NCBI GenBank assembly: GCA_947479815.1
Contig: CANKAT010000029.1
Location: 1-34,418 of the forward strand
From: Sphingobacteriaceae bacterium
GTDB taxonomy: Bacteria > Bacteroidota > Bacteroidia > Sphingobacteriales > Sphingobacteriaceae
Direction of reading: 5' to 3'
Length of the DNA: 34,418 nt
This document shows positions 7,411 to 34,133 of the stretch, in pieces. Under the pieces are notes generated by a model. It had not been told where the DNA came from and searched no databases. It saw nothing but the letters and a program-made list of their open reading frames with translations. Every line of letters begins with the position of its first letter. Within the stretch, counting starts at the first letter, position 1. Made by a program: the position numbers and the translations under genes.

Positions 7411-8712
7411 TTAAACAACAACAACTTTCTGAGATTTTCTGGTTAACAGATGTATAATGGTCCATGCTACTAAATACGTAATGCCGCAAATAGTGAATAT
7501 TAAATTATAGCCTCCTGTTAGGTTATTAGCCGTTTTATATACATCCAGTAAATAACCTACAAATATGGGGAATAGGATTCCACCTATTGCTCCGGTCATT
7601 CCACCGATTCCTACCACTGAGCTCACCACTTCTTTTGGAAACATATCTGAAGCCAATGTAAAAATATTAGTTGCCCATGCCTGATGAACAGCTACAGCCA
7701 AACTTATCAATCCTACAGCCACCCACTTATCGGTCACAAACTGCGCTATGGCTATCATAATTCCAAGTTCAAGAATTGCAAACAGGAGTAAAACTCCTTT
7801 TCTTGCTTTTAATGTAGGCCAACCTCTGTTGATCAGTTGAGAAGAGAAATATCCTCCAGCAATACTTCCAATGGTTGTAGCACCATAAATCAGCATCAAT
7901 TCAGGGCTGATCACTTTTAAGTCTAGATTAAATGTTGCAGAAAAATAAGAAGGCAACCAGAAGAGAAAAAACCAAAAAATTGGATCGATCAGGAATTTGC
8001 CAGTTACAAAGGCCCATGTTTGAGGAAACGTAAATAATTTAGCCCATGAAATTTTTGTGGTACTCTGAACCTGGTCAACATTATCATCATGATCACTTTC
8101 AATATATGCAAGTTCTTCAGCACTCAGCCTTTTTTGCCTGCTTGGAATTTCATAAAGCCATAGCCAGAATATCAACCAAATAAAGCCCATTGCTCCGGTT
8201 ATCCAAAAAACTTCATGCCAGCCATAATTCTGCATGATAATTGGAACAATAATTAATGCTACAACCACTCCAATTGCTGTACCTGAGTTAAAAATGCCCG
8301 TTGCAAGTGCTCTTTCCTTTTTTGGAAACCATTCTGAAACAGCTTTCATTGCTGCAGGAAAATTACCTGCTTCCCCTATCCCTAATGACAATCTTGCAAT
8401 TCCAAAACCTGCAACTGATTTTGCCAGTGCATGCCCCATACCGGCTACACTCCAAACTACTACTGCGACAGAATACCCAAGCTTGGTTCCAACTTTATCG
8501 ATAAACCTTCCAGAAACTAATAATCCAATTGCATAAGCAAATGAAAATGCAGACATGATCTTACCAAAATCAGTTTCTGTCCAATTAAATTCCAATTCAA
8601 GCGTTGGTTTTAATAAACCAATGATCTGCCGATCCAGATAATTAATTACTGTACCCAGAAATAATAGCGTTACTATTAACCAGCGATAATTTTTTCCTTT
8701 GGGAGATATCAT
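7411..8712 (-). CDS. MFS transporter, anion:cation symporter family (ExuT-like sugar-acid importer)
   Basis: A 433-aa inner-membrane carrier with about 12 transmembrane segments. The N-terminal NYLDRQIIGLLKPTLELEF, the RFIDKVGTKLGY loop (the MFS motif between segments 2 and 3) and GIGEAGNFPAAMKAVSEWFP mark the ACS group that includes hexuronate (ExuT) and galactonate (DgoT) carriers. It is the last gene of the run and lies 32 nt after the aldolase gene, next to the KDG-type kinase. That fits import of an aldonate, a hexuronate or a 2-keto-3-deoxy acid. The exact substrate is inferred from context only. Its stop codon runs straight into a heptamer repeat array. Confidence 0.92.
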   Translation of the reverse strand: MISPKGKNYRWLIVTLLFLGTVINYLDRQIIGLLKPTLELEFNWTETDFGKIMSAFSFAYAIGLLVSGRFIDKVGTKLGYSVAVVVWSVAGMGHALAKSVAGFGIARLSLGIGEAGNFPAAMKAVSEWFPKKERALATGIFNSGTAIGVVVALIIVPIIMQNYGWHEVFWITGAMGFIWLIFWLWLYEIPSRQKRLSAEELAYIESDHDDNVDQVQSTTKISWAKLFTFPQTWAFVTGKFLIDPIFWFFLFWLPSYFSATFNLDLKVISPELMLIYGATTIGSIAGGYFSSQLINRGWPTLKARKGVLLLFAILELGIMIAIAQFVTDKWVAVGLISLAVAVHQAWATNIFTLASDMFPKEVVSSVVGIGGMTGAIGGILFPIFVGYLLDVYKTANNLTGGYNLIFTICGITYLVAWTIIHLLTRKSQKVVVV

Positions 8713-8744
8713 TTTATTAAGAGTTATGAGATTCGTTTTTTGAT

Positions 8745-9383
8745 TTATGAATTAAGTTTAGATACATATTGCTTAAAATGCAATTCCAACCCTTCCCAGT
8801 TTTGATCTTTGATGAGTGTTTTATCAAAAAGCTGACTTCCAATACCTAGCCCATCAGCACCAGCTTTAATAAATGTTTGAATATTATCTAGATTAATTCC
8901 GCCAGTAGGCATTAGCTTTATCTTATTTAAAGGTGCTTTCACATCCTTTATGTATTCTGGCCCGAGGCTTGTTGCAGGATAAACCTTAACCATGCTTGCT
9001 CCTAGTTTCCATGCCTGATAAATTTCTGTGGGAGTATATGCTCCAGGAAATACGGGTATATTTTTACTGACACAGGTTCGAACAACATCAGGATCAAGGA
9101 TTGGGGTAACAATAAACTGAGAACCCGCACGGATAGCCAGATCCAATTCATCTGTATTACAAACCGTACCTGCTCCAACATTTAGCTGCCCCATATATTT
9201 ATCAGCAGCAAAACGAATAATTTCTTCTGCTGCCTGAGTATTCATTGTAATTTCAATGGTTGTGAGGCCTGCAGAAAGATAGATTGGAAGAATTTTTTCG
9301 ATAGTATCAAAACTTAAATTCCTGATAATTCCAACAATGGGAACTTTTGAAAATCCGTTCCATGAAAACTCTTGATTATTCAT
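8745..9383 (-). CDS. 2-keto-3-deoxy-6-phosphogluconate/galactonate aldolase (KDPG/KDPGal aldolase)
   Basis: A 212-aa cytosolic class I aldolase that splits 2-keto-3-deoxy-6-phospho sugar acids into pyruvate and glyceraldehyde-3-phosphate. Catalytic Glu44 lies in TTIEITMNT and the Schiff-base lysine is Lys133 in MVKVYPA. The phosphate-binding PTGGI is at 159-163. The Asn of MNT sits where Eda has Arg and DgoA has Asn, which favours KDPGal over KDPG, though only weakly. I chose the ATG at 9383 because MNNQEFSWNGF fits the family N-terminus. An ATG at 9404 would add 7 residues. The chosen start overlaps the end of the kinase gene (ATGAATAA), which suggests translational coupling. Confidence 0.93.
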   Translation of the reverse strand: MNNQEFSWNGFSKVPIVGIIRNLSFDTIEKILPIYLSAGLTTIEITMNTQAAEEIIRFAADKYMGQLNVGAGTVCNTDELDLAIRAGSQFIVTPILDPDVVRTCVSKNIPVFPGAYTPTEIYQAWKLGASMVKVYPATSLGPEYIKDVKAPLNKIKLMPTGGINLDNIQTFIKAGADGLGIGSQLFDKTLIKDQNWEGLELHFKQYVSKLNS

Positions 9384-10380
9384 TTGAAGTAGTTTGAGTG
9401 GCATTAAAAATTTGTACCTGACCAGCTATTGTTGCTTTATCTATTAGTTCGGGCTGAATATAAGTTGTATTGAATTTCAAGGAAATAGCTTCAGCTGCAA
9501 GTTTATAATGTTCATAAAGATGCTTTCCACTGCATATTATCAAACGGTCATAATTTCCATCTTTTAGCTGCCTAAGTTCTGAACCAATTAATAAACCACT
9601 TAAGTAAAATGAATTCTGCTCCTTTGTGAATTGGCCAAATAACTGCCCGGTTCGGACGGTAAACAAGCTATGTAAAAGTGCCGATGTGCCAGAAATCTCC
9701 ACTCCCTTTAAAAAGGCTTTACTTGATTCCTGATTTTTTAAATCAGAGTCAGAGCTGCTATTAACAGAATCTTTTAAGATGCTGTGTTCAGTCATAATAT
9801 TAAAAATCTCACCAGTCATATAGGTGTGAAAATCAGTTACAAATCGATCTTGAACAACAATATGCTTAGAATGTGTGCCAGGGAACACAAAAACAATTTT
9901 CTCTGAGCCCTGAATTGTAATCTCATTTAATTTTAGAAGTCCTATTAGTTGTGCTTCTTCTCCACGCATCACATCTTCATGACTTTTAAGTCCAGAAACT
10001 AATAGCAAGGGAGCGTCCATGCCATTAAAATCTTTGAAAACCCTAACAGAAGCTTGACTTCCATTACTCTCAAACGGAAGTTCTGCGTAAGGAAGTTCTT
10101 CCATACCAATTGAAGAAGATGCCATTCCGGATACAATGAGAGGAATAGTATCCAGCATAAATGATGTCTTTTTTGCTAATTCTTTGATGCTATTTTTTAA
10201 GATTGCGGCATAAAAATCAAAACGACTAAGCTCATCCTGTTCTTTCCAGTTTCTGTAGGTACCTGCAACCCCGTCTTTAGTTAAATATTCAGCAAGAACC
10301 TCATAATTCTGTTTTTCAACAAGCCTTAATCTGAATGAAGTTGTGCCCCAATCACAACATAAAATATGTTTATCCATCAA
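9376..10380 (-). CDS. dgoK: 2-dehydro-3-deoxygalactonokinase (DgoK family)
   Basis: A 334-aa cytosolic sugar-acid kinase that phosphorylates 2-keto-3-deoxy-galactonate (or a related KDG acid) at C6. The N-terminal phosphate-binding segment CCDWGTTSFRLRLV and the substrate-side motif GMASSSIGMEELPYAELPF are typical of DgoK. FVFPGTHSKHIVV near residue 165 matches the conserved GTHsKwv region. There is no signal peptide. It comes 24 nt after the BNR gene and overlaps the aldolase gene, forming a kinase-aldolase pair that defines the lower De Ley-Doudoroff route. The substrate epimer (gluco or galacto) is not certain. Confidence 0.92.
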   Translation of the reverse strand: MMDKHILCCDWGTTSFRLRLVEKQNYEVLAEYLTKDGVAGTYRNWKEQDELSRFDFYAAILKNSIKELAKKTSFMLDTIPLIVSGMASSSIGMEELPYAELPFESNGSQASVRVFKDFNGMDAPLLLVSGLKSHEDVMRGEEAQLIGLLKLNEITIQGSEKIVFVFPGTHSKHIVVQDRFVTDFHTYMTGEIFNIMTEHSILKDSVNSSSDSDLKNQESSKAFLKGVEISGTSALLHSLFTVRTGQLFGQFTKEQNSFYLSGLLIGSELRQLKDGNYDRLIICSGKHLYEHYKLAAEAISLKFNTTYIQPELIDKATIAGQVQIFNATQTTSNE

Positions 10381-10404
10381 AATTTCAATTCTCCATTCAA
10401 AATT

Positions 10405-11598
10405 TTACTTATTAACTCTGTTTTTAAAGACAACTGATGCATTGCCATTCAGAATATCATTTTCTGTAAATCTGCAATACAAAATATCTTTAGCACCCGT
10501 TCTTTCACGATCAAAAACAACATGAATAGTACCATCACTTGTTTGATCTGCATCAGGATAAGATACATTTTCGCGTTCATCAAGTACTAATTTATGAGGC
10601 CACGTTTTTCCGCCATCTTTTGAAAGAAAGGCAGACATTTTATTTCGTGTAGTGCTATTATTACTGACCAGCAATAAATTACCGGAAGAAAGTTTACCTA
10701 AATAAAATCTACTGGAGGTTGTTGGGCCAGAAGCTGTAAAAGGCTCAATTTTAGCCCAGGTTTTCCCAAAGTCATTACTTTTTGTAAAATATATCCCTTT
10801 GGTTGTTCTCAACATTGCAAGACATTCGCCCATTTCAGAAATTTCAACCACCTGTGGTTCGTCATGTATCCTTAAATTTTCTTCAATTTGGATAGAAGCA
10901 TATGGACTGAGTTGAAGCTTGTGTTCTGACCTAGAATAAGCATTAGAATAAATAAATACCCCATTCTGAGGAAATGATTTTTCAGATTTTGTTCCAAGAA
11001 TTGGCTTATCAATGTAAACTGGGAAAAGTGTCTGCTTTATTGACGATAAATTAACAGGTTTATTACTCATTACCCCATCACTTATTCGGATAGGAATAGA
11101 ATTAGAGATTCTCTTTCCATCCCATTTAATTTCTAAGGCATTAACACCGCCAAAACCGTCCCAAAGTAAATTATTCTTAGCACTGCCATAGAATAAATGT
11201 ATTTTACCCTTATTATCTCTCCATAGTGCAGGATCAAATAATCGGTAGGCCTTATCTGTTGGATAAATAGCAAGCTGATCATTCAACCAAGATTTTCCTA
11301 AATCCTGACTAACTGATAATGTTACATAATTACCTGGTCCAGGCGCAGCTCCACCTGAATACCAGGCTACAAAAACCTGCTTTCCATCAGCAGTTGCAAC
11401 AACTGCAGGTACCTGTTCAAATTTTCTGTCTTTTAATCTTGAATCTGCAGGATTATAAATAAACTCTGCCATAGCAGATGGATCTTTGTCGCCGGTAATA
11501 GCAAGAGCAGTTATTTTACTTAAACTGCATCCTGACCATAGAAATCCACAGCTAAAAGTCAGGAAAATCACAGAAAATAGTATTGATTTGGTTTTCAA
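10405..11598 (-). CDS. Exported sialidase-like beta-propeller protein with Asp boxes (BNR family)
   Basis: A 397-aa exported protein, possibly a lipoprotein (Cys24 in LWSGCS is an imperfect lipobox). Three clear Asp boxes, SQDLGKSW (97-104), SNDFGKTW (274-281) and SKDGGKTW (326-333), mark a six-bladed sialidase-like propeller. The segment TTSSRFYLGKLSSGNLLLVS resembles BNR proteins found in sugar-utilisation loci. I could not identify the complete arginine triad and Tyr/Glu pair of true sialidases, so sialidase activity is not claimed; a glycan lyase, a hydrolase or a binding protein are all possible. It lies between the dehydratase and the kinase genes. A 130-nt gap precedes it and contains an ATGTGA/TCACAT dyad. 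Confidence 0.8.
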   Translation of the reverse strand: MKTKSILFSVIFLTFSCGFLWSGCSLSKITALAITGDKDPSAMAEFIYNPADSRLKDRKFEQVPAVVATADGKQVFVAWYSGGAAPGPGNYVTLSVSQDLGKSWLNDQLAIYPTDKAYRLFDPALWRDNKGKIHLFYGSAKNNLLWDGFGGVNALEIKWDGKRISNSIPIRISDGVMSNKPVNLSSIKQTLFPVYIDKPILGTKSEKSFPQNGVFIYSNAYSRSEHKLQLSPYASIQIEENLRIHDEPQVVEISEMGECLAMLRTTKGIYFTKSNDFGKTWAKIEPFTASGPTTSSRFYLGKLSSGNLLLVSNNSTTRNKMSAFLSKDGGKTWPHKLVLDERENVSYPDADQTSDGTIHVVFDRERTGAKDILYCRFTENDILNGNASVVFKNRVNK

Positions 11599-11728
11599 AT
11601 TATGATGTTTTAAAAATAAATTATAGTTCTCAATATGAACCGGATTTAAATAAGTTCCGGAATCCTAAAAATGTGATTTTTTATGGAAATATTCACATGA
11701 ACATCCTAAATAAATGAATTTTATAAAA

Positions 11729-12970
11729 TTACCAATTGTGAATGGCCCCATCTGGACTCTTCAAAACTGGATGTGGGAACTTAGTTTTTTCGGTAATCTC
11801 CATGATAAAATTTGCCTTTTTGGGATTAAATTTCACACCTAATCCAGGTTCCGGATTTAAATACAATTTACCATTAGAAAAATTCAGGTAATCATCATTG
11901 AAATACGCTGGTCTTTCTACCTCACCGCCAGCTAATTCCATCATTACTCTTGAAGGGCTACTTGAACCCAAAACATGTACTAAAGCTGCTGTTGATAAAG
12001 GGCCAGTAAAGTGTGGAATCATACCTATATAATGGGTCTCACATAATGCTGCTATCTTCTTCAATTCTATTATTCCACCACTATTAGGCAATGTTACCCT
12101 AGAATAATCTATGAGATGTTGTTCAATTAATTCATTAATATCCCAGCGATCACCAAATTGCTCACCTACCGCTATAGGGACTTTGGTAGCCTGCCTGAAC
12201 GTTCTGTAAACACCTGGATTTTCAGACCTAATCGCATCTTCCACAAAATATGGGCTTAATTCTTGTAATGCTGAACAGATTTTCACAGCTTCGGGAGTAT
12301 CAAAACGGGTATGAAGATCAATTGCCCAATTGCCCTTACCTCCTACTGCTTGATCAATTCTCTTACTGAATTCAATGGTCTTATCGGCATTTTCAAAGAA
12401 ATCAAAAGGAAGATCGCCATTGCCACCCGTTGGCCCAATTCGATATGACCTAAAGCCAGCTTTAAGACAATCGGTGGCTCTTTCTTCTTCAGTTTTTGCT
12501 TTAGATGGTCTGAAACCAGTGGCGTAACATTCTACAAATTCTCTGGTTGATCCACCGAGGAGCTCATAAACAGGAACATTTAAAACTTTTCCCTTGATAT
12601 CCCAGAGCGCCATCTCAAGGGCTCCTAATGCATGTAATTTCTCTCTTCCAGGAGGATAAAACATACCTCTGTATAGATATTGCCAGATATGCTCGATACG
12701 AAAAGGATCTTCGCCGATCATCATCTGAGCACATTGTTCGATCATATCTTTTGAACCACCCTCACCGATACCGATTATCCCTGTATTAGTTTCAATTTCA
12801 ACAATACCTCGAGCCTGATTAAAAAGAGGTTTATTATACCCAGGGGCGGCATAATATCTAATTTTAGTGATCTTAATATTAGATGATGCCTGTGCATTTA
12901 GAATTGGGAAACCAATTAGCATGGCTGCCGATCCGAAAAATGCAGATTCTAGAAATCGTCTTCTTTGCAT
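11729..12970 (-). CDS. Tat-exported enolase-superfamily sugar-acid dehydratase (mandelate racemase/MLE family)
   Basis: A 413-aa enzyme of the mandelate racemase/muconate-lactonizing group. The leader MQRRRFLESAFFGSAAMLIG is a good twin-arginine signal. In the barrel, likely metal ligands are Asp218 (in AIDLH), Glu244 (YFVEDAI) and Glu270 (AVGEQF). His220 of the DxH motif and His320 (MIPHFTGP) match the acid/base histidines of mannonate and galactonate dehydratases. The usual Asp near GGI is replaced by PNSGGI. It probably dehydrates an aldonate to a 2-keto-3-deoxy acid, the substrate class of the downstream kinase. Known relatives are mostly cytosolic, so export is unusual. The sulfatase gene ends 28 nt upstream. 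Confidence 0.9.
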   Translation of the reverse strand: MQRRRFLESAFFGSAAMLIGFPILNAQASSNIKITKIRYYAAPGYNKPLFNQARGIVEIETNTGIIGIGEGGSKDMIEQCAQMMIGEDPFRIEHIWQYLYRGMFYPPGREKLHALGALEMALWDIKGKVLNVPVYELLGGSTREFVECYATGFRPSKAKTEEERATDCLKAGFRSYRIGPTGGNGDLPFDFFENADKTIEFSKRIDQAVGGKGNWAIDLHTRFDTPEAVKICSALQELSPYFVEDAIRSENPGVYRTFRQATKVPIAVGEQFGDRWDINELIEQHLIDYSRVTLPNSGGIIELKKIAALCETHYIGMIPHFTGPLSTAALVHVLGSSSPSRVMMELAGGEVERPAYFNDDYLNFSNGKLYLNPEPGLGVKFNPKKANFIMEITEKTKFPHPVLKSPDGAIHNW

Positions 12971-12998
12971 ATAATGATTTAATAAAAAATAACAAAAA

Positions 12999-14768
12999 TT
13001 AGTTTATTCGTTCCACATCAACATACTGTACACCAATATCCTGATTATCTGACTTGATAAATGCCTCAAATCTACCTGGGCCTTCAGGTAATTCTATAGA
13101 ATCAAACCTAGAAACCGTATCACCTACCTTAGTTGCAATTTTCTTTTCTATACCACGATATTTTAAATATGCAAAACCTGATTTTGTTGCTTTTTGATAA
13201 CGTAGAATGACATTATATTTACCAGGGCTGCTAAACACTTCCCAAAAGCCAATTCGTCTGGATTGCTCTCCTATTGAACCCTGACCACCCCAATCAAACC
13301 TTGATAATTGTACAATGGGCTGAAACTTAGTACCTATATATATTCGCTGGGGCCATTCACTACCGCGATCTTTCATAGCCTGATCAAACCAGGTTTCATA
13401 ATGAGAAAGCATATTTTTAACAATATCGGGGTGTTGTTTAGCTATATTTTCAATTTCACTAGGGTCTTTCTCAATATCATATAACTCTAGAGAGGCTAAA
13501 AGTTTTTTCATATCTGCATCTGCAATGCCAGGCCGGATAATATTGCCATAAGGATCATCATTTGGAGAAATGAGTTTATAGCGCTGACCTCGCACCGTAA
13601 AATGAAAATACTTGTAGGGTTCAGAACCAGCATGACCCTGAATGAATATTTCACGTTCAGGAATACTCTTCAATTTATTAGTAAGTAAAGGCAATAGTGA
13701 TATTCCATCCAATTTCAAAGATTGGGGTATCGGTACATTACATGCTTCTAAAAGTGTAGGCATTACATCAATATGTGCTGCCAGATTGGTGTATTTAACT
13801 CCTTTAGGTATCTTTCCGGGCCATTTAATAAAAAATGGAGCACGTATTCCATTTTCATAAACACTCGTTTTTGTACCCCGAAGATTCATCACAAAACGAT
13901 CTGGATAGAGGTCATTTTTTGTTCGTTTAGTTCTCGGTCCATTATCTGACATAAAGATTACGATGGTATTATCTTCTATGCCTAATTCTTTTAGTTTAGC
14001 TAGTAAACGACCAATATTAGCATCCACGTTGGCAATCATGCCATAGGTTAGTGCATTGAGTTCATGAAGACCCATCTTGCGATAAGGATCTGCCCATTTA
14101 TCGCTAACAATTAATGGAAAATGAGGCAGGTTAGTTGCATAAAAGGCAAAAAATGGCTTGTCCTTATTCTTATCAATGAAGTTAATCGTAGCATCTGCAA
14201 AAATATCATCACAATAGCCTTTAAAAACCTTTTTGACATTATTATGCTCCAAAATTGGATTGAAATACGAGTTTCCTGGAGGATCGGATGCCTGTCCAAT
14301 TCCTCCGCCTTTATGAATCAAGGTTTCCTGAAAGCCCTTATCGGAGGGCCTCATAGGATAGGAATCGCCGAGATGCCATTTTCCGAAAATTCCGGTACTA
14401 TAACCCGCATCTGAGAGTACTTTTGCAAGGGTAACCTCTGTAGACTTCATAAGATGCGAGGTCTCTGTAACGCCTACTACACCTGTTCTGTAATTATCTC
14501 TTCCTGTAAGCATACTAGCTCTAGTAGGAGAACAATTAAAATTCACAATAAACTGACGCATCTCAGCACCTTGATTTGCAATTGCATCCATATTAGGCGT
14601 TTTCAGAATATCGTTATTATGAAGTCCAACATCGCCAATACCCTGATCATCAGTCATGATCAAAAGAATATTAGGCCGCTTTTGAGCAAAGGAGCACTCT
14701 GGATAAATAAAGCTGAATGAAGAAAGCGATATTAAAAGAATTTTGAAATTGAGACGAATCAGATTCAT
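12999..14768 (-). CDS. Exported arylsulfatase-family sulfatase
   Basis: A 589-aa type I sulfatase that removes sulfate esters from sugars or related compounds in the periplasm. I start it at the ATG at 14768, which gives a clean signal peptide (MNLIRLNFKILLISLSSF... cleaved near SFAQ). An ATG 36 nt upstream would add a poor N-terminus. The metal-binding NILLIMTDDQG follows at once. The formylglycine signature CSPTRASMLTGR has its modified Cys at residue 79. HFPL, MSDNGPRTK and the GKWHLGD histidine region are also present. The C-terminal ~110 residues look like an added beta-rich domain. Formylglycine maturation genes are not in this window. The position between deacetylases and dehydratase suggests a sulfated substrate. 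Confidence 0.94.
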   Translation of the reverse strand: MNLIRLNFKILLISLSSFSFIYPECSFAQKRPNILLIMTDDQGIGDVGLHNNDILKTPNMDAIANQGAEMRQFIVNFNCSPTRASMLTGRDNYRTGVVGVTETSHLMKSTEVTLAKVLSDAGYSTGIFGKWHLGDSYPMRPSDKGFQETLIHKGGGIGQASDPPGNSYFNPILEHNNVKKVFKGYCDDIFADATINFIDKNKDKPFFAFYATNLPHFPLIVSDKWADPYRKMGLHELNALTYGMIANVDANIGRLLAKLKELGIEDNTIVIFMSDNGPRTKRTKNDLYPDRFVMNLRGTKTSVYENGIRAPFFIKWPGKIPKGVKYTNLAAHIDVMPTLLEACNVPIPQSLKLDGISLLPLLTNKLKSIPEREIFIQGHAGSEPYKYFHFTVRGQRYKLISPNDDPYGNIIRPGIADADMKKLLASLELYDIEKDPSEIENIAKQHPDIVKNMLSHYETWFDQAMKDRGSEWPQRIYIGTKFQPIVQLSRFDWGGQGSIGEQSRRIGFWEVFSSPGKYNVILRYQKATKSGFAYLKYRGIEKKIATKVGDTVSRFDSIELPEGPGRFEAFIKSDNQDIGVQYVDVERIN

Positions 14769-14786
14769 ATATAAAAAATCAAAAGT

Positions 14787-14838
14787 ATACCTATAATTAA
14801 TCATATCAGAATAGGTAAATTATGATATTTATAGGTAT
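14787..14838. promoter_or_regulatory. Long imperfect inverted repeat in the sulfatase leader
   Basis: Arms at 14787-14805 and 14821-14838 share ATACCTATA/TATAGGTAT at the outside and TCATA/TATGA inside, around a 15-nt loop that holds a third partial copy (AATAGGTAA). It lies 19-70 nt upstream of the preferred sulfatase start and downstream of the preceding amidohydrolase stop. It could be an operator, an RNA processing hairpin or an attenuator. It lacks a GC-rich stem, so a strong terminator is unlikely. Confidence 0.45.
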
Positions 14839-14868
14839 GCCAAATTTAAAAAAAAAACAGATTCAAAT

Positions 14869-16158
14869 CTATTTTCCTTTTACTCGATTGGACGCAATGG
14901 CATTTAAATCATACACGATCTTACCACCCTTAATAGTCATTTCGCACTCAAATTTTTGTGTTCCGGATTTTTTGTTTCCAGCAACGTCCCTAAAACCAAA
15001 ATCGCCTTTGCGCATACTCAAAATAGCGATATCAGCTATTCCACCCACAGAAAGATTGCCAAGCTCTTCCCGTTTAATTGCTTGAGCAGGCGACCAACTT
15101 GCAGCCTTGACGATTGAAGGGATATCCATTCCAAGAAAAAGAAATATTGACATCACATTCAATTGATCTTTCATTGCACGAATAATACTTTCTGAGTGAA
15201 GATCAGTACCCATTGTATTTGGATAAAATCCAGATTTAATTGCTGGAACTGCTTGTTTGAAATTAAAGCTACCGCTTCCAAAACCAACATCAAAGATAAT
15301 TCCTCGCTGTTGTGCAGCTTTAACAAATGGTCTTAACTGGTGATTTTCAAAATCAACGATGGGATCTTTACTTTTAGGCGCTTCAATAAACGTATGAGTG
15401 TAAATATCTCCTGGTCGTAAATATTTAAATAAAAGTTCTTCGAGCGACTGATTACCTGTACCAAAATCTATCATCACCGGCATATTGGCTATTTTACCTG
15501 CCTGTGTAATTCGCTCTACCGGAGTCCAGTCGGCCTTGCCGAAATGAGCAAGTTTGAAACCAACTACGTATTCCTTGTTTTCAATGGCAAAAGCGGCAGT
15601 TTTTTCAGCTTCCATATCCCCAAGATCCTGTTCATATGCACCTCCTCTCATGCCTTGGCCAACAATATTAAGCATCGAGAGTACTCTAGTTTCTGAAAGG
15701 TCAATAATGTTTTTCTTAAACATCGCAAATGACTTCCACCCAGCACCTCCTGCATCAACCACAGTGGTTACCCCAGCCTTAAAAGTATGACCATCAGGAA
15801 TTACAGCTATTGAACCATTGCTCAGATAATTAGATTTGGATGGGCCATAAAATACATGCGTATGAATATCAATAAGGCCAGGAGTAACAAACATTCCTTT
15901 AGCATTCACCACTTGAATAGCAAGCGCTGTATCAATATTTTTAGCTACCAATGCAATCTTTGCTGCCTGAGCGGCATTCCCATCTCTAGCTGGCCGGGCA
16001 GAGTATATAGCAACATCCATCAATTGATTAATATTGTTTTTAGGATCAATTACATGCCCTCCCTTAATTACAATATCATAAACAGCAGTATTCTGTGCCT
16101 GAGCAAAACCTGCCGAAAATATTGCCAAAGCAATAAATATGAAAAAATATTTATTCAT
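14869..16158 (-). CDS. Exported amidohydrolase/deacetylase-family metallohydrolase (paralog A)
   Basis: A 429-aa protein with a signal peptide (1-22), so probably periplasmic. It shows the amidohydrolase TIM-barrel pattern of the EF_0837/Atu3266 deacetylase group: His99/His101 in LIDIHTHVF, the likely carboxylated Lys202 in VVGFKLAHF, His255 in GDIYTHTF and Asp319 in GTDLH. The second barrel histidine, which I recall as GHG in this family, is Phe293 here (DVGFGSGSF). Unlike its three paralogs it has an insertion of about 10 residues around 52-66 (SARPARDGNAAQAAK). It is the third of three tandem copies on the minus strand, 28 nt after paralog B. It probably hydrolyses an N-acyl or ester bond; the substrate is unknown. 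Confidence 0.9.
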   Translation of the reverse strand: MNKYFFIFIALAIFSAGFAQAQNTAVYDIVIKGGHVIDPKNNINQLMDVAIYSARPARDGNAAQAAKIALVAKNIDTALAIQVVNAKGMFVTPGLIDIHTHVFYGPSKSNYLSNGSIAVIPDGHTFKAGVTTVVDAGGAGWKSFAMFKKNIIDLSETRVLSMLNIVGQGMRGGAYEQDLGDMEAEKTAAFAIENKEYVVGFKLAHFGKADWTPVERITQAGKIANMPVMIDFGTGNQSLEELLFKYLRPGDIYTHTFIEAPKSKDPIVDFENHQLRPFVKAAQQRGIIFDVGFGSGSFNFKQAVPAIKSGFYPNTMGTDLHSESIIRAMKDQLNVMSIFLFLGMDIPSIVKAASWSPAQAIKREELGNLSVGGIADIAILSMRKGDFGFRDVAGNKKSGTQKFECEMTIKGGKIVYDLNAIASNRVKGK

Positions 16159-16186
16159 TTACTCGATAATTAGAACGCCTCTATAT

Positions 16187-17437
16187 TTATTTTTTAGCAT
16201 TAGATTGAGCAATGGCATTAAGATCATACATAACCTTTCCATCTTTAATCGTCATTTCACACTCTAATTTTTGTGTGCCTTCCTGTCTGTTTCCAGCAAT
16301 ATCTCTGAATCCAAATTTTCCCTGCCGAACGCTTAAGATTGCAATATCAGCGATTGCTCCTTCAGAAAGATGTCCAAGTTCTAGGCGTTTTATAGCTTTT
16401 GCGGGAGCCCAGGTACTGCGAGCAATCACAGAGGGAATATCCATCCCCATAGCCAAATGAATAGATAAAACATTTAATTGATCTTTCATTGCTCCATTCA
16501 TACTTCCAGTGTGAAGGTCAGTACCCAATAGGTCTGGAAGAAATCCTGCTTTAATTGCCGGGATAGCCTGATTAAAATTAAAGCTTCCGCCACCAAATCC
16601 AACATCAAAAACAATTCCTCTTTTTTGTGCCGGGAGTACAAAGGGCCTGAGTTTTCTAGTTTGAAGATCTACGATTGGATCTCTTCTTTCCAATTCAGTG
16701 AAAACATGGGTGTAAATATCACCTGGCCTAAGGTATTTTAGAAAAAGATCTTCAATTGGGAGTTTACCTCCACCAAAATCAATGATTACTGGCATATTGG
16801 CAAGATTACCAGCAGCTACGATCTTTTCAACTGGAGTCCAATCAGGATTGTTAAAATGTGCCAGCTTAAACCCTACCACATATTCTTTATTATCGATTGC
16901 AGCTTTTGCTGCAAGCTTTACATCCATATCACTTACATCTTGTTCATATTCACCACCTCTCATTCCTTCGCCAACAATATTCAAGAAAGATAAAACCCGG
17001 GTTTGAGATTTATCAATAATATTTCTTTTAAACGTGGGAAACGACTTATATCCAGCTCCACCACAATCTACAAGAGTGGTTACGCCGGAGCGAAAACTAA
17101 ATCCATCTGCAGTGACACCCACATTTCCATTACTGAGATAGTGATCAGGTTGAACTCCCCAAAAAACATGCGCATGAACATCAATCAAACCGGGAGTAAC
17201 ATACATTCCTGTTGCATTTACTATCTGTACTGCAAGTGAAGGATCAATATTTTTACCAACCTTGGCAATTTTGCCATTTTTTATGGCAACATCTAGAAGG
17301 TCATTGATATTGTTTTTTGCATCGATCACTCTGCCACCTTTGATAATAGTACTGTACAATGGAGCTGTACCCTGTGCTTTTGCATTAGCAAGTATCAGGA
17401 ATAGCATAGATAAAAATAAAATTGAGATTTTTCTCAT
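16187..17437 (-). CDS. Exported amidohydrolase/deacetylase-family metallohydrolase (paralog B)
   Basis: A 416-aa protein starting at the ATG at 17437, which gives the signal peptide MRKISILFLSMLFLILANAKAQ. An upstream ATG at 17476 adds 13 residues before it. Expected ligands are present: His88/His90 (LIDVHAHVF), Lys191 (VVGFKLAHF), His244 (GDIYTHVF) and Asp307 (GTDLHTGSM). Phe281 replaces the second barrel histidine (DVGFGGGSF). It is very similar to paralog C over the catalytic half (for example KLPIEDLFLKYLRPGDI is shared), which points to recent tandem duplication. It is co-directional with C (60 nt upstream) and A (28 nt downstream). The function should match the family: periplasmic deacylation of a hydroxy- or amino-acid-like substrate. 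Confidence 0.9.
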   Translation of the reverse strand: MRKISILFLSMLFLILANAKAQGTAPLYSTIIKGGRVIDAKNNINDLLDVAIKNGKIAKVGKNIDPSLAVQIVNATGMYVTPGLIDVHAHVFWGVQPDHYLSNGNVGVTADGFSFRSGVTTLVDCGGAGYKSFPTFKRNIIDKSQTRVLSFLNIVGEGMRGGEYEQDVSDMDVKLAAKAAIDNKEYVVGFKLAHFNNPDWTPVEKIVAAGNLANMPVIIDFGGGKLPIEDLFLKYLRPGDIYTHVFTELERRDPIVDLQTRKLRPFVLPAQKRGIVFDVGFGGGSFNFNQAIPAIKAGFLPDLLGTDLHTGSMNGAMKDQLNVLSIHLAMGMDIPSVIARSTWAPAKAIKRLELGHLSEGAIADIAILSVRQGKFGFRDIAGNRQEGTQKLECEMTIKDGKVMYDLNAIAQSNAKK

Positions 17438-17497
17438 CGCTTTTTTTCTAAGAATCTTAAAATAATAACCAAACAATGGTTAGGGTTGAATTAAAAA

Positions 17498-18742
17498 TTA
17501 TCTGCTTTTTTCAGGATTACTGGCTATAGCATTGAGGTCATAAACTATTTTTCCTGCACGAAGAGTCATTTCACATTCGAACTTCTGTTTACCTTCATTT
17601 CTATTTCCTGCGATATCTCTAAACCCAAATTTGCCATTACGTACACTCAGGATTGCTACATCAGCACCTGCACCTACAGAAAGGTTCCCAAGATCTTCAC
17701 GTTTAATGGCTTGTGCTGGCGCCCAAGTACTGCGAGAAATAACTGAAGGAATATCCATGCCCATAGAAAGAAATATGGATAGCACATTCAGCTGATCTTT
17801 CATTGCCCCGTTCATACTTCCTGTATGAAGATCGGTACCCATGGTGTTTGGTAAAAATCCTGCTTTGATTGCGGGAATAGCCTGATTAAAGTTAAAACTT
17901 CCACCACCAAAACCAACATCAAAGATGATTCCTCTTTTTTGTGCAGGAATAACAAAGGGTCTGAGTTTTCTACTTTGAAGATCTACTATCGGGTCTCTTA
18001 TTTCAAGTTCAGTAAACACATGCGTAAAAATATCACCTGGCCTAAGGTATTTCAAGAACAGATCTTCAATTGGTAATTTTCCAGCACCAAAATCAATAAT
18101 AACAGGCATATTAGCTAATTTACCTGCAGCAACTACCCTTTCAACAGGTACCCAACTTGCTGCTCCAAAATGTGCAAGTTTAAACCCAACAACAATATCT
18201 TTATTAGCTAAAGCTTTTTCAGCTGTTTTTTGAGCATTCATATCATTGACATCCTGTTCATAAGGATCGCCTCTCATACCCTCGCCAACAATGTTTAAAA
18301 AGGAAAGTACTCTGGTACGGGATTTATCAATAATTGTGGATTTAAACTTATCAAAAGAAGCCCATCCAGCACCACCACAATCAACCACAGTGGTTACACC
18401 TGCACGGAAAGTATATGGATCAGGAGCTAAGGCAGAGAAACCACCACTCAGTCCGCGGTCATCTGTTCCGGCAAAAACGTGAGCATGCAAATCAATCAAA
18501 CCCGGAGTAACATACATCCCATCTGCAGTCACAATTTGTGAAGCAAGAGCAGGATCAATATTTTTAGCTAAAGCAGCAATTTTGCCATCCTTAATAGCTA
18601 CATCCATTTTTTCATTAATATTGTTTTTGGCATCGATTACATGCCCGCCTTTAATCAGGATACTGTATGTTTTTGTCTGAGCCTGAATAAATGAACTAAG
18701 AAATAAAAGGCTGTAAAGAAGCAGAAAGGATATTCTTTTCAT
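17498..18742 (-). CDS. Exported amidohydrolase/deacetylase-family metallohydrolase (paralog C)
   Basis: A 414-aa protein. The start at 18742 gives a normal signal peptide (MKRISFLLLYSLLFLSSFIQAQ); an ATG at 18820 would add 26 hydrophobic residues and is less likely. Ligand positions are His86/His88 (LIDLHAHVF), Lys188 (VVGFKLAHF), His241 (GDIFTHVF) and Asp304 (GTDLHTGSM). Phe278 replaces the second barrel histidine. The loop after HAHVF (AGTDDRGLSGGFSALAP) differs from that of A and B and could change substrate choice. It is the first of the tandem trio and is separated from the PLP enzyme gene by a repeat-bearing gap of about 150 nt. Confidence 0.9.
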   Translation of the reverse strand: MKRISFLLLYSLLFLSSFIQAQTKTYSILIKGGHVIDAKNNINEKMDVAIKDGKIAALAKNIDPALASQIVTADGMYVTPGLIDLHAHVFAGTDDRGLSGGFSALAPDPYTFRAGVTTVVDCGGAGWASFDKFKSTIIDKSRTRVLSFLNIVGEGMRGDPYEQDVNDMNAQKTAEKALANKDIVVGFKLAHFGAASWVPVERVVAAGKLANMPVIIDFGAGKLPIEDLFLKYLRPGDIFTHVFTELEIRDPIVDLQSRKLRPFVIPAQKRGIIFDVGFGGGSFNFNQAIPAIKAGFLPNTMGTDLHTGSMNGAMKDQLNVLSIFLSMGMDIPSVISRSTWAPAQAIKREDLGNLSVGAGADVAILSVRNGKFGFRDIAGNRNEGKQKFECEMTLRAGKIVYDLNAIASNPEKSR

Positions 18743-18793
18743 AATCAGAATAATGTTTACAATAAAAATTGGTATTAGGTTTGGGCGAAAAAT

Positions 18794-18893
18794 AAGATAT
18801 GAGAAACAAGATATGAGCACGAATTCAGTAATAAACTGATTTCTTGACCTTCTCAGGTCTCATATCTCATATCTCATCTCACATCTCACATCA
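18794..18893. repeat. Heptamer repeats in inverted arrangement, running into a stop codon
   Basis: Units AGATATG, AGAAACA, AGATATG (18794-18814) face CAGGTCT, CATATCT, CATATCT, a 5-bp unit, CACATCT, CACATCA (18854-18893). AGATATG is the reverse complement of CATATCT, so the two parts can pair around a 39-nt loop. The last unit includes the TGA stop of the PLP enzyme gene. The period is 7 bp, as in the arrays at 7040-7408, and the placement at a gene end is also the same. Confidence 0.75.
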
Positions 18894-20111
18894 ACTAACA
18901 GCTGCCTTAGCAAGCTCTTCCTGAACACGTTTTGCAACAATTTTATCTTCACCATTTTTGAGCATAAAAACTGTTAAATTGATTGCATTTGGCTCAATCA
19001 TTACTTCGATTGACGGGCTTCCATCCTGTAGATTTTTACGCAAATCTTTAGAAGAAATTTTTAATTTACTTGGATCCCATGAAATAGTGATTTTTGGAGT
19101 ATGATTGGCAATTGGAGGTACGCTGACTTTAACATTAACTCCATCAACTTTTTTTACTGCATTTTCAATCACTGCAACTCTTGCTTCCCACATTTTCCAT
19201 TCAGCATCATGATCTTGATTAACATATTTATCAAGAGCCACGTACATTCCAAGAATTTCTTCTTTATTCACCTTTTGTCCACGACCAATGTTGCCTCCAT
19301 TTGGTGGACCATTTAAACGTGCAGCAGCAATAAGGTCTTTACGGCCAATAAGCATTCCAGCACTCTGAGGGCCACGAATACCTTTACCACCAGATATACA
19401 AACTAGGTCAAAACCAAGGTCGGTGTATTTCCATAAATTTTCAACCGGTGGAATATCAGCAGCGATATCTATTAATGTAGGAATTTTGTGCTTTTTTGCT
19501 ATTGCAACAAACTCTTTATGAAGTATCTTGCCTGCATCAGTTTCATGATTCAAGAAATACATCATTGCTGTTTTATTAGTAATTGCTTTTTCAAGTTCCT
19601 CTGCTGTTTCAACAACTACAGGAATAATACCTGTATTCATCAATGCATGAACATACCCTACCATGTGGCTTTTCTGAACGATTACCTCATTCTTTTCAAG
19701 TTTTGATACATTTGGCAATGCACTTATTTTTTTCTGATCAGTTCCTGTAAGTACACCTGCAGTTCCTAATACAAGGGCCGACCAACATCCAGCAGTTACC
19801 ATTGCAGACTCTGCATGGCAAATAGCTGCAATTTTTTCACCTACTTTATCTTGCACTTCATTAATCATTACAAAATGTTTCGCTGATTCCGCAATAGTAT
19901 CCACAACCTCATCGTGCATTAAAGATGCAGTCATTGTGGTATAAGTACCCGCTGCATTTATAAAGGTTCGCAAACCAAGCTCTTTAATAACATCTCGTTT
20001 TGCAGTTGTTGCTGCAGTTCCGGCTAATGCTTGAAAAGGAACACCGGCACCAATCGCTGCACCTGCAATAGGAGCTGCAGAAAGGTATTTAATAAGATCT
20101 CTACGTTTCAT
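18891..20111 (-). CDS. Tat-exported SelA/DgaE-like PLP-dependent enzyme (paralog 1)
   Basis: A 406-aa fold-type I PLP protein of the SelA-like group that includes D-glucosaminate-6-phosphate ammonia-lyase (DgaE). The Schiff-base lysine is Lys243 in LVCISGGKGIRGPQS; the cofactor-binding Asp is in LIDIAADIPP (about 213-222). The leader MKRRDLIKYLSAAPIAGAAI has twin arginines and a hydrophobic stretch. I start at 20111; an ATG 36 nt upstream would put 12 residues before the leader. Tat export fits an enzyme that must bind PLP before crossing the membrane. The gene follows SusD2 after a hairpin and precedes three amidohydrolases, the pairing known from EF_0837-type loci. Likely chemistry is alpha,beta-elimination of ammonia from an amino sugar acid; this is inferred. 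Confidence 0.9.
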   Translation of the reverse strand: MKRRDLIKYLSAAPIAGAAIGAGVPFQALAGTAATTAKRDVIKELGLRTFINAAGTYTTMTASLMHDEVVDTIAESAKHFVMINEVQDKVGEKIAAICHAESAMVTAGCWSALVLGTAGVLTGTDQKKISALPNVSKLEKNEVIVQKSHMVGYVHALMNTGIIPVVVETAEELEKAITNKTAMMYFLNHETDAGKILHKEFVAIAKKHKIPTLIDIAADIPPVENLWKYTDLGFDLVCISGGKGIRGPQSAGMLIGRKDLIAAARLNGPPNGGNIGRGQKVNKEEILGMYVALDKYVNQDHDAEWKMWEARVAVIENAVKKVDGVNVKVSVPPIANHTPKITISWDPSKLKISSKDLRKNLQDGSPSIEVMIEPNAINLTVFMLKNGEDKIVAKRVQEELAKAAVS

Positions 20112-20240: not shown

Positions 20241-21842
20241 TTAGTTACTTTGGCCTGTACCAGGACCAACATCCCACCACATTCTGCCTTGTAAAAGGTC
20301 TAACTCTTGTTCAGAGTAATTTTGACGCTTGATGGCTTCAAAGTAGTTATCAGCATTTACGTTACGTTCTGCAATAGGTAAAGAGAATCTTCTCCACATT
20401 TTACCTGCAGTTACGTTACCTGGATAGCTAACTTTCTGACCAGCAGTGTTAGTCCAGTTAGCATAGTTAAATACAGGGTATTTTGTACGACGCCAGTTAG
20501 AATAAACCTCATAATCATCACCAAGAAGTGAAACCCATTTTTGAGTAGAGATAACCTCTAATTGTTGGGCAAAGGTACCTGCAGCAGGATAAGGATTTGC
20601 AAGCAAATAAGCATCAACCTGTGCTGTAGTGATTACCCCTGAATGAGGAGCAACACTAGGCCATAAAGCCCATTGAGCCATTGCTGCACGAACACCATTA
20701 TCATAGGCAGCCTGTGCAGTTGTTCCAACGCTCCATCCTCTTGCAGCAGCTTCAGCTATTATTAAATAAGCTTCAGCAGGACCCATGGTTATGATTGGAG
20801 AACCTCTGTCAATATAAAGCAAAGATGGCTCGGAATAGGTATCAAAATCACTTGGTCTTGTATTGATACTTCCATTAACCATTCCACGCTGAGTAGCAGG
20901 AGTATTATTTGGAGTATAGGTAGCTCCGGCAGGAACCCAAACCACAGATAGTACAGGTAAGCGGGGATCACTCGTATTTTTCAAATGATCAATAAATTTA
21001 CCTGACCACTTACTTCCTTCTACGTTATCACCACCCGGGCTTGTAAAGTCACCTGCAATGTATCCATTAACTCTTGGATTCATTTGACCAGTAACATTTG
21101 CATATTTCAGGTAAGCAATATCAGCAAAAGCTGTCATTACCCCACCTGCAACAGCTTTTTCAACCCAAGCCTTTGCAGTGGCAGGCTCAATATCAGATAA
21201 ACGCATGCCTAAACGAAGCATTAAGGTATATCCGAATTTTTTCCATTTAGCTACATCTCCTTTGAAATAGGGATCCGCATTACCAAATACATTTGGCTTT
21301 GTAGCATCCATAGATTTCAAAGCTGTTTCAAGTTCGGTTAGCATCGCAGCATAGATACTTTTTTGAGTATCATATTTCGGCTTTAATATATCCAAACCTT
21401 TCATCGCTTCTGAATAGGGCATATCTCCCATCACATCTGTTTGCTGATGAAAAGCCAAGATTCTAAGAATCTCAACAGCAGCACGCTTATTCACGTTTTC
21501 TGGGCCAGGGATTTCCTTAGTAAGTTGTAATAAACGGTTCCATTGCCCGGTATAAATATTAAAGCTACCGGCTGTTCCACTGAAATTGTAGAATTTATCT
21601 CCAGTTGCAGGAACTTCTTTATAAGAAGAAAAATACTGCAAACCTTGACCTAATGGTCTGTAATTCTCGCCTGGACCGCTAGCTAATACTGCTGCAGTAA
21701 AGGAATAATCCGGAATTACGTATTCAATTGCGTTTGGATTCTTGTTCAGGTCAGTTAGCTTCTCGGTATTACACGATTGCATCGTTGAAAATACAAGAAC
21801 AGCTCCGGCCGCATATATCATTTTTATGAATGTCTTTTTCAT
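20241..21842 (-). CDS. SusD/RagB-family surface lipoprotein (SusD2)
   Basis: A 533-aa outer-membrane lipoprotein with the signal ending TMQSC (Cys24) and the family start NTEKLTDLNKNPNA. Family features follow: RLLQLTKEI, LRILAFHQQTDVMGDMPYSE near residue 125, FGYTLMLRLGMRLSD near 205, a PAEAYLIIAEAAARGW segment near 355 and QKWVSLLGDDYEVYSNWRR near 435. It lies 17 nt after SusC2 in the same operon and is not closely similar to SusD1, so the two systems probably take up different ligands. Its position at the head of the enzyme gene run makes it the likely binding protein for the substrate of those enzymes. Confidence 0.95.
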   Translation of the reverse strand: MKKTFIKMIYAAGAVLVFSTMQSCNTEKLTDLNKNPNAIEYVIPDYSFTAAVLASGPGENYRPLGQGLQYFSSYKEVPATGDKFYNFSGTAGSFNIYTGQWNRLLQLTKEIPGPENVNKRAAVEILRILAFHQQTDVMGDMPYSEAMKGLDILKPKYDTQKSIYAAMLTELETALKSMDATKPNVFGNADPYFKGDVAKWKKFGYTLMLRLGMRLSDIEPATAKAWVEKAVAGGVMTAFADIAYLKYANVTGQMNPRVNGYIAGDFTSPGGDNVEGSKWSGKFIDHLKNTSDPRLPVLSVVWVPAGATYTPNNTPATQRGMVNGSINTRPSDFDTYSEPSLLYIDRGSPIITMGPAEAYLIIAEAAARGWSVGTTAQAAYDNGVRAAMAQWALWPSVAPHSGVITTAQVDAYLLANPYPAAGTFAQQLEVISTQKWVSLLGDDYEVYSNWRRTKYPVFNYANWTNTAGQKVSYPGNVTAGKMWRRFSLPIAERNVNADNYFEAIKRQNYSEQELDLLQGRMWWDVGPGTGQSN

Positions 21843-27273: not shown

Positions 27274-27298
27274 TATACTCTAAAATATCTTTTTTATT

Positions 27299-28753: not shown

Positions 28754-28860
28754 TTTATGTAAGACATTTAAATCCCGGCATTGATTTAATCTATTTCGGG
28801 TATTTTCTAGTCAACATTATTTCTAAATTGTAATCCGATAATTAATAAAAAATCTTAAAA

Positions 28861-30840: not shown

Positions 30841-30856
30841 GAAAACTGTCAGCCTT
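30824..30856 (-). terminator. Terminator after PLP paralog 2, possibly bidirectional
   Basis: Stem AAGGCTGACAG (30824-30834) pairs with CTGTCAGCCTT (30846-30856) around an 11-nt loop. T runs follow in both directions (TTTTTTA at about 30860 on the plus strand; the A run at 30820-30825 gives U on the minus strand). It starts 20 nt beyond the stop of the minus-strand PLP gene and can also stop lctP transcription. Confidence 0.85.
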
Positions 30857-30876
30857 AGCTTTTTTATTATCTTGGA

Positions 30877-32091: not shown

Positions 32092-32117
32092 AATTTTATA
32101 TTATATATTAAAAAAAA

Positions 32118-32140: not shown

Positions 32141-32147
32141 CAATAGA

Positions 32148-33728: not shown

Positions 33729-33755
33729 AAGAATATTGTGTAGAGTTAAAATATG

Positions 33756-34055
33756 TTATAATTTTTTTTTGATTTCATGAACATCAGAATCATAGTAATT
33801 ATTTGCCCAGTAAACATAGAGGCCAGTAATTAGCCATGAAAAGAATATAATCCCTAATCCTACAACAATAGCAAGATTTATTGAATCGCCTAATGGCATT
33901 TTCAGAAAGTCTTTATTGTATGCTATTACAAGCAAAAAACCGATGTAAACAAATAACATAACAAATGTGAATGAAAGAGAAATATTCCATCTTGTTTTTA
34001 CCAGCTTTTTAAACTCGGCACTTTGAAGAATTTCATGTGTTTTTGCACTATCCAT
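33756..34055 (-). CDS. DUF485 membrane protein (YjcH-like, partner of ActP)
   Basis: A 99-aa protein with two transmembrane helices (about 27-48 and 62-84). SAEFKKLVKTRWNISLSFT at the N-terminus is the DUF485 signature. I start it at the ATG at 34055 (MDSAKTHEIL), which matches the family length; an ATG at 34133 would add 26 residues with no family support. The gene directly precedes the ActP-like symporter, the order found in many bacteria. Its role is unknown; it is assumed to assist the symporter. Confidence 0.9.
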   Translation of the reverse strand: MDSAKTHEILQSAEFKKLVKTRWNISLSFTFVMLFVYIGFLLVIAYNKDFLKMPLGDSINLAIVVGLGIIFFSWLITGLYVYWANNYYDSDVHEIKKKL

Positions 34056-34133
34056 AATTAGTATAAATTGTTTTAGAGGGTTGTGATAAATATTTAATAA
34101 ACTATCTAGTATTTGATAGAAAAAACTAAGCAC

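Follow-up and report, generated by a model that had tools for sequence, protein, structure and literature searches.

A gene cluster for a putative periplasmic, unphosphorylated route of N-acylated 2-amino-aldonate degradation in a Sphingobacteriaceae bacterium

The pyridoxal 5'-phosphate (PLP) enzyme DgaE is cytosolic, and its substrate is phosphorylated. What, then, might a DgaE-like enzyme do when it carries a predicted export leader and is encoded together with predicted exported deacetylases, upstream of a leaderless sugar-acid kinase and aldolase? This question is raised by a 34,418-nucleotide stretch of DNA (the window; C29:1-34418, GenBank contig CANKAT010000029.1) from a Sphingobacteriaceae bacterium of the Daejeonella genus, whose genome of 3.2 Mb is estimated to be 100% complete. 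With moderate confidence, we read the main gene cluster of the window as encoding a putative periplasmic route that would degrade N-acylated 2-amino-aldonic acids (N-acetyl-glucosaminate and N-acetyl-mannosaminate are examples) in unphosphorylated form.

Gene content and predicted export

All genes named in the original prediction were found on the minus strand between positions 7411 and 25186, separated by small gaps. Read from 25186 to 7411, the run begins with a SusC-like TonB-dependent transporter (21860..25186) and a SusD-like lipoprotein (20241..21842), both recognized by family match, followed by PLP1 (18891..20111), a DgaE/SelA-family PLP enzyme with a twin-arginine translocation (Tat) leader, for which we propose a 2-amino-aldonate ammonia-lyase function based on its TIGR01437 match, PLP lysine and RR leader. 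Next are three signal-peptide amidohydrolases/deacetylases, AMH3 (17498..18742, start taken as the ATG at 18742), AMH2 (16187..17440, start taken as the ATG at 17440) and AMH1 (14869..16158), an exported sulfatase with a CSPTR motif and an SGSH_C domain (12999..14804; family match and leader), and a Tat-leader, ManD/DgoD-like sugar-acid dehydratase of the mandelate racemase (MR)/enolase superfamily (11729..12970; family, catalytic residues and leader). A BNR_2 lipoprotein (10405..11598; family match), absent from the original prediction, is encoded between the dehydratase and the kinase. The run ends with the leaderless DgoK of the 2-keto-3-deoxy-galactonokinase family (9376..10380; PF05035), a leaderless 2-keto-3-deoxy-6-phosphogluconate (KDPG)-type aldolase (8745..9404; PF01081, TIGR01182) and a major facilitator superfamily (MFS) carrier with D-galactonate transporters as nearest relatives (7411..8712; TIGR00893). 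The carrier gene is followed by one for an exported RraA-like (aldolase/RraA) protein (6048..6977, minus strand; family match). Searches of the window for tRNA genes and Rfam families gave no match.

Leaders were predicted by eye and with a heuristic, not with SignalP; the heuristic combines a Kyte-Doolittle hydrophobic window with a search of the first 60 residues for an RR motif. In the window, the PLP enzyme and the MR dehydratase each have an RR motif ahead of a hydrophobic stretch, and Sec-type leaders are predicted for the amidohydrolases and the sulfatase, with none on DgoK or the aldolase. Across all loci, in rows that include near-copies and with false positives to be expected (two of six presumably cytosolic epimerases have an RR motif), RR precedes a hydrophobic stretch in 55/58 short and 17/18 long PLP enzymes, 28/32 Rid proteins and 6/6 MR dehydratases. 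The hydrophobic threshold was reached by 84/92 amidohydrolases, 15/15 RraA-like, 12/13 Rid2 and 14/17 SMP-30 proteins and 20/22 GSDH-cytochrome c proteins, and by 0/14 DgoK and 0/12 aldolases. Alignments to solved homologues begin 48 (PLP1) and 49 (AMH3) residues into the listed open reading frames (ORFs), and 36 and 23 residues from the preferred ATGs; for PLP1 the ATG at 20111 is the most likely start, versus the TTG at 20147 of the listed ORF. TatC is encoded in the genome.

Proposed pathway

The reactions, substrates, step order and transport roles proposed here are reconstructed from gene content, predicted leaders, linkage and active-site residues. SusC and SusD would carry the sugar through the outer membrane. 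The sulfatase may trim sulfate, and a GSDH-like sugar dehydrogenase encoded in a second gene set of the window could convert the sugar to a lactone or aldonate. An exported amidohydrolase would then remove the acyl group from the N-acyl-aldonate, and the Tat-exported DgaE-like enzyme would eliminate water and ammonia from the resulting 2-amino-aldonate, yielding a 2-keto-3-deoxy acid (2-keto-3-deoxygluconate, KDG), which the Tat-exported MR dehydratase may also form from non-amino aldonates. Import of KDG by the MFS carrier would be followed by phosphorylation by DgoK and cleavage by the KDPG-type aldolase to pyruvate and glyceraldehyde-3-phosphate. Where relatives have no kinase and no aldolase, the last steps may fall to an exported RraA-like aldolase together with a PanS-like symporter of the SBF family.

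We also consider, more tentatively and with some doubt, that a complete oxidative amino-sugar pathway could be located in the periplasm, with only acetate, ammonia and keto acids entering the cell. Here, a dehydrogenase with cytochrome c would oxidize the free N-acetyl-aldose, a lactonase would open the product, and amidohydrolase and PLP lyase would generate the 2-keto-3-deoxy acid, possibly cleaved in the periplasm by the exported RraA-like aldolase. Paralogues might be tuned to different amino sugars, and the set adjoining an LctP permease may act on the aldonate of N-acetylmuramic acid, with lactate expelled instead of water at C3.

If the proposed route exists, exported PLP enzymes would deaminate amino sugars before these reach the cytoplasm and without early phosphorylation, and energy would be drawn as electrons to cytochrome c. 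It would further explain the large exported SelA-like family, with 14 members in one 3.2-Mb genome, and provide Bacteroidota, which lie beyond the bacteria with a described Ong pathway, with a route for oxidized sugars from chitin, glycosaminoglycans or peptidoglycan.

Conservation of the gene neighbourhood

The survey of exported-enzyme co-occurrence that the original prediction had called for was based on 68 PLP genes encoding at least 350 aa. Five near-identical rows (at least 97%) and genes with less than 5 kb on either side were dropped, which left 22 genes for short enzymes on 21 stretches (L104 contributes two, and the window is included) and six for long ones; most of these loci were found by scanning with PLP1 itself and are not a random sample. 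The flank rule excluded L108, the second PLP gene of one genome, for which no amidohydrolase was seen on a stretch of 10.7 kb near a contig end, and L111-L114 are outside the neighbour count. Family labels of neighbours are single-sequence phmmer hits (E value 1e-5). An amidohydrolase gene lies within 8 kb of all 22 short PLP genes and of four of the six long ones, compared with 1 of 20 control windows (20 kb each, from two genomes only). The PLP-amidohydrolase linkage is far above the control level. It also recurs in seven other genomes of a phylum survey for which genomes were selected without use of neighbours (G178, G186, G223, G255, G301, G338 and G352), all of which encode an amidohydrolase in the stretch around the short PLP gene (7/7).

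Other neighbours are less constant. Within 8 kb of the 22 short PLP genes, matches were found to Rid (12), SusC (11), SusD, SMP-30 and sulfatase (10 each), GSDH-cytochrome c (9), Rid2 and RraA (7 each), SBF (5), DGOK, aldolase and MR (4 each) and MFS (3). The 20 control windows contained one match each to GSDH-cytochrome c, sulfatase and ROK and four to SusC, and none to PLP, Rid, SMP-30, SBF or RraA. In Daejeonella loci (L044-L049, of which L047 is from Daejeonella lutea DSM 22385) the gene order of the window recurs with a variable number of amidohydrolases, and the MR or sulfatase gene is absent in some. Loci L050-L057, from records labelled Chitinophagaceae, Chitinophagia, Sediminibacterium or simply Bacteroidetes, share the order PLP-AMH-DGOK-ALDO-MFS wherever enough sequence is available, so that, by record names, this run is common to two families. 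SusC-SusD or SusD directly precedes the run in L050, L051, L055 and L056 and not in L054 and L057, and a long PLP gene often follows it. The BNR_2 lipoprotein is retained in the Daejeonella operon and was not seen in L050-L057.

The cluster could also be an ordinary locus for the use of sulfated glycans. Aldonates would then be handled by the MR dehydratase, DgoK and aldolase, the PLP enzyme and amidohydrolases would have side functions, and the periplasmic location would be a minor feature. The presence of SusC/SusD and a sulfatase, together with the sulfatase-like genes in 10/22 neighbourhoods, would agree with such a locus. We nevertheless regard this explanation as quite improbable, as the PLP and amidohydrolase genes are the constant elements, whereas sulfatase and MR genes vary and neither was seen in the stretches examined of L050-L057.

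In a broader set of loci from Saprospiraceae, Lewinella, Cytophagales and others (L058-L077), many pairs are accompanied by some of six partner kinds, namely Tat-leader Rid (PF01042), exported Rid (PF14588), SMP-30/gluconolactonase (PF08450), GSDH with cytochrome c, RraA-like proteins and SBF symporters. Families of amino-sugar metabolism also occur beside the pair, with GlcNAc 2-epimerase and ROK in L072 (by Pfam) and L077 (by likeness), Glucosamine_iso on contig C34 of the source genome, and HGSNAT_cat in one locus by Pfam and in five more by eye. Oxidized amino sugars are the substrate best in line with neighbours of the lactonase, sugar dehydrogenase and amino-sugar kinds. SBF symporters beside the pair (L058:7455-8534 and L010:4765-5895) are candidate keto-acid importers, the nearest relative of the one in L058 being the ketopantoate transporter PanS. 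Over the entire stretches, DGOK was detected for 7/22 short PLP genes, which adds the window, L044 and L046 to those within 8 kb; the stretch of L045 ends too early to show it. In a tree of PLP enzymes, the eight rows with DGOK within 8 kb fall into one group of 12 that includes PLP1 (support 96/74, not firm). Rid-linked rows make up most of the set in which this group is nested, so the kinase branch looks like something added locally to the exported PLP-amidohydrolase pair.

That DgoK and the aldolase were not seen in most loci with the pair is in line with an alternative to which we assign a small chance, in which N-acyl-D-amino acids or N-acyl-homoserine derivatives are the substrates of the exported amidohydrolase and PLP enzyme, with a simple 2-keto acid and ammonia as products, and the kinase and aldolase of the window form a separate branch fed by the MR dehydratase. 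The lactonases are readable as acyl-homoserine lactone openers, and the LctP and ActP-like permeases of the second gene set would suit small monocarboxylates. However, the sugar dehydrogenase and SMP-30 genes point to aldoses, as do a BBE oxidase and lactonase in another phylum, the PLP, AMH, DGOK, ALDO and MFS genes are adjacent and ordered in two families even without an MR gene, and amino-sugar families are found near the pair.

Enzyme families and active sites

TIGR01437 is the best-scoring family for PLP1 (173.8 bits, under the cut-off of 385.3). The PLP lysine aligned to DgaE K213 is present in 48/48 short and 13/13 long PLP enzymes, and H112, D189, S210, R242, K245, K248 and E249 (DgaE numbering) are unchanged in 48/48 short rows. 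Several other DgaE residues are substituted in every exported form or almost every one, including R297 (Asn in 48/48 short rows) and Y330 (Glu in 46/48).

A structure model of PLP1 (mean pLDDT 74) had Cap15 (8t7j) as its first fold match, with a TM score of 0.69 by query length, and DgaE as its second; a fold match to 7lc0 had an E value of 1.8e-23. Cap15, which is O2-dependent according to the title of its structure, functions in capuramycin synthesis. PLP1 might thus be a Cap15-like oxidative degrader of beta-hydroxy-alpha-amino acids that depends on O2, not a lyase, and its product would not be a 2-keto-3-deoxy acid. Besides the fold ranking, Cap15 is also the second of the two sequence matches of PLP1 among solved homologues. 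We consider such a function improbable, since DgaE is closer in sequence (107 versus 87 bits), no family scores better than TIGR01437, and the same gene run continues with a kinase and an aldolase for 2-keto-3-deoxy acids.

The long Tat-leader PLP enzymes (about 550 aa; e.g. L011:10614-12257) form a subfamily that is 34-38% identical to PLP1 in the source genome, and no separate Pfam domain was recognized in their extra length.

All three amidohydrolases of the main run exceed the NF006689 cut-off of 371 (AMH1, 389.1 bits; AMH2, 407.7 bits; AMH3, 413.7 bits), as does the amidohydrolase of L060 (442.1 bits), and the proteins of the run score below the cut-off of TIGR03583 (EF_0837). We take the EF_0837/NF006689 amidohydrolases to correspond to COG3964. 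Across 76 rows, the HxH histidines (76 and 75), the lysine (74), the strand-6 histidine (76) and the strand-8 aspartate (76) are kept. PpOngB (9kb1) matches AMH3 over 60 residues only (E value 8.9e-4), which rules out an OngB-type deacetylase. On one Salmonella and one Mesorhizobium plasmid with amidohydrolase matches, the annotated neighbours do not include a partner of the PLP1 family, and these matches were left aside.

DgoK matches PF05035 with 200 bits (cut-off 25), and no NCBIfam match was obtained at an E value of 0.001. The aldolase exceeds the TIGR01182 cut-off (173.9 versus 156.05) and remains under that of NF006600 for the 2-keto-3-deoxy-6-phosphogalactonate (KDPGal) type (150.9 versus 207), and its Schiff-base region could be aligned. 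As the aldolase scores as KDPG type and not KDPGal type, gluco- or manno-configured substrates are favoured over galacto ones, and a galacto substrate inferred from DgoK alone is weakened. Elsewhere, the genome encodes three KDPG-type aldolases and two GH20 proteins. The MFS carrier scores 237.8 against TIGR00893, under the cut-off of 395. For the dehydratase, the residues D, H, E, E, H and E, which form the catalytic set of ManD/DgoD dehydratases, were aligned by eye to the ManD-type structures 3thu and 4il2, and its scores are under the cut-offs of the equivalogs matched.

Evidence weighing against the proposed pathway

In addition to the ranking of Cap15, an O2- and PLP-dependent enzyme, above DgaE by fold, several observations weigh against the proposed route. 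PLP1 scores 139.2 bits against the DgaE equivalog, which has a cut-off of 600. The strand-5 histidine of amidohydrolases, a metal ligand, is present in the solved homologues 2ogj, which we take to be Atu3266, an acetyl-(R)-mandelate esterase, and 8je0; it is replaced by aspartate in 73/76 rows and by glutamate in 3/76. PF05035 has a single match in the genome, the DgoK of the window, on which the 13 further PLP genes would also depend. No SMP-30 or Rid gene was found in the window, and the route does not account for the sulfatase and the BNR_2 protein. A Daejeonella operon (L113) contains the kinase, aldolase and MFS genes and no amidohydrolase gene inside the operon, and in a Bryobacter genome with six PLP matches, the four stretches examined showed neither amidohydrolase nor Rid genes nearby.

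One outcome that the original prediction named as refuting it, an occurrence of the set mainly without the kinase, aldolase and MFS genes, was partly observed: DGOK accompanies 7/22 short PLP genes, and many of the other loci contain Rid, lactonase, dehydrogenase, RraA or SBF genes instead. The predicted periplasmic route thus holds in part: the exported deacylase/DgaE-like pair is conserved and the clade of the source organism shares the PLP-AMH-DGOK-aldolase-MFS run, but most loci with the pair lack the kinase.

RidA enamine/imine deaminases have a canonical active-site arginine. This residue is Leu or Ile in 31/32 rows called RidA, which also argues against the route as proposed, and was found in 0/12 Rid2 rows; the sole arginine-bearing RidA row is a lipoprotein Rid of the source genome (L012:8446). 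The Tat-leader Rid proteins without this arginine would therefore not be classical RidA deaminases, and the case for the exported Rid proteins acting like classical RidA is weakened. Together, the missing Rid arginine, the amidohydrolase aspartate, the likeness to Cap15 and the kinase-free majority of loci leave room for other chemistry. Most members of the arginine-less exported Rid group (L009:3332-3880 and 30 similar rows) share an SLVE(M/I)DCIA motif.

Comparison with known systems

A cytoplasmic pathway for GlcNAc1A has been described in Pseudoalteromonas, in which OngB deacetylates, OngC deaminates to KDG and KdgK phosphorylates; the Rid-family protein OngD is required for growth and has an unknown role, and the full Ong set was found in Gammaproteobacteria and one Betaproteobacterium (PMC9537276). 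OngB has been placed as a sister group of D-aminoacylases (PMC12017989), and for haloarchaea a partial route that includes a homologue of DgaE has been proposed (PMC12343721). In the Ong pathway, unphosphorylated N-acetyl-glucosaminate is deacetylated and deaminated to KDG before the kinase acts, which the gene families of the window would fit, and the Rid-family gene of the Ong cluster has a counterpart in the exported Rid genes beside the pair in many relatives. The unphosphorylated chemistry of the original prediction thus has a precedent, although a cytosolic one, and is read here from gene families. In contrast to Ong catabolism, in which OngD is not described as exported, the enzymes considered here carry predicted leaders and belong to different families, the amidohydrolases not being of the OngB type.

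PLP1 resembles DgaE in fold, PLP lysine and several conserved residues, and differs from it by its Tat leader and a score below the equivalog cut-off. Likewise, the amidohydrolases resemble the EF_0837/NF006689 proteins in family score and the retained HxH, lysine, strand-6 histidine and aspartate, yet they are predicted to be exported, have an aspartate in place of the strand-5 histidine and remain under the TIGR03583 cut-off. The kinase and aldolase families are those of the known DgoK/KDPG aldolase branch, which here is apparently fed by exported enzymes and pairs DgoK with a KDPG-type instead of a KDPGal-type aldolase. Cap15 and PLP1 are alike in fold, and Cap15 is O2-dependent. In agreement with the original prediction, for which no periplasmic version was known, no periplasmic DgaE-type route was found in the open literature; with most subscription papers outside the search, this is weak evidence of absence.

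Distribution and paralogues

The source genome encodes 14 PLP paralogues, six short (about 410 aa) and eight long (about 550 aa), on contigs C9, C16, C19, C29, C34, C35 and C86; a fifteenth hit covers 39 residues in the leader of another Tat protein. Amidohydrolase paralogues, which occur additionally on C17, number 18, and six more of the 24 hits are either short or weak; one of these six is probably a further gene on C86 of which only a truncated end is present. These 14 Tat-leader PLP and 18 exported-type amidohydrolase genes represent a large lineage-specific expansion. Five SMP-30 places are above the cut-off elsewhere in the genome, one of which adjoins a long PLP gene on C35. The large cluster on C9 also encodes a Tat protein of 432 aa without a Pfam match (L009:14385-15683).

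By PLP1, the nearest named loci are five Daejeonella records and one 'Sphingobacteriales bacterium' (75-79% identity). In a survey of 20 Daejeonella-genus genomes including the source genome, five had no PLP match, one had a weak match only and ten had 14-19 matches, and among 40 genomes outside the genus the match was strong in one and weak in seven. Of 395 Bacteroidota genomes in the phylum survey, eight including the source genome, from 7/170 genera, match PLP1 at an E value of 1e-80 or better. A plasmid of Granulicella, which belongs to another phylum, carries the order RraA-PLP-Rid-long PLP-AMH-lactonase-BBE oxidase, with leaders recognized by eye on six of the seven proteins and a BBE protein without a leader as annotated. 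PLP1 also has matches in 139 Rhizobium plasmid records, and the one examined carries adjacent Rid and PLP genes without leaders, next to an ABC transporter.

A second gene set

A second set of genes occupies positions 25942-34133. On the plus strand, it comprises AMH4, an exported amidohydrolase (25942..27273; family match) kept in relatives, an exported GSDH-like beta-propeller and proposed sugar dehydrogenase (27299..28753; GSDH 25.1 bits, cut-off 25), and an LctP-family permease (28861..30528; TIGR00795 527, cut-off 341.15). These face PLP2, a second Tat-leader PLP enzyme that is 53% identical to PLP1 (30877..32091), an ActP-like sodium:solute symporter (32148..33728; NF006903 740.3, just under the cut-off of 750) and a DUF485 protein (33756..34133; family match), presumably the customary partner of ActP, all on the minus strand. 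In a low-confidence model of the propeller (mean pLDDT 57), aldose dehydrogenases and an AA12 enzyme take the first four places among the fold matches, ahead of paraoxonases and WD40 propellers; these folds and the borderline Pfam score lend weak support to a dehydrogenase identity. The arrangement of AMH4-GSDH-LctP facing PLP2-ActP-like is kept in six of the seven Daejeonella-genus genomes examined for it, three of which have an added Rid2-type gene, and was not seen in the one stretch examined of the seventh. That an LctP permease accompanies AMH4 and the GSDH-like protein may indicate that this set releases lactate or another monocarboxylate. The gene beyond the second set matches HGSNAT_cat in one member scanned by Pfam, and five other members have a gene of like length and opening sequence, as judged by eye, at the same place.

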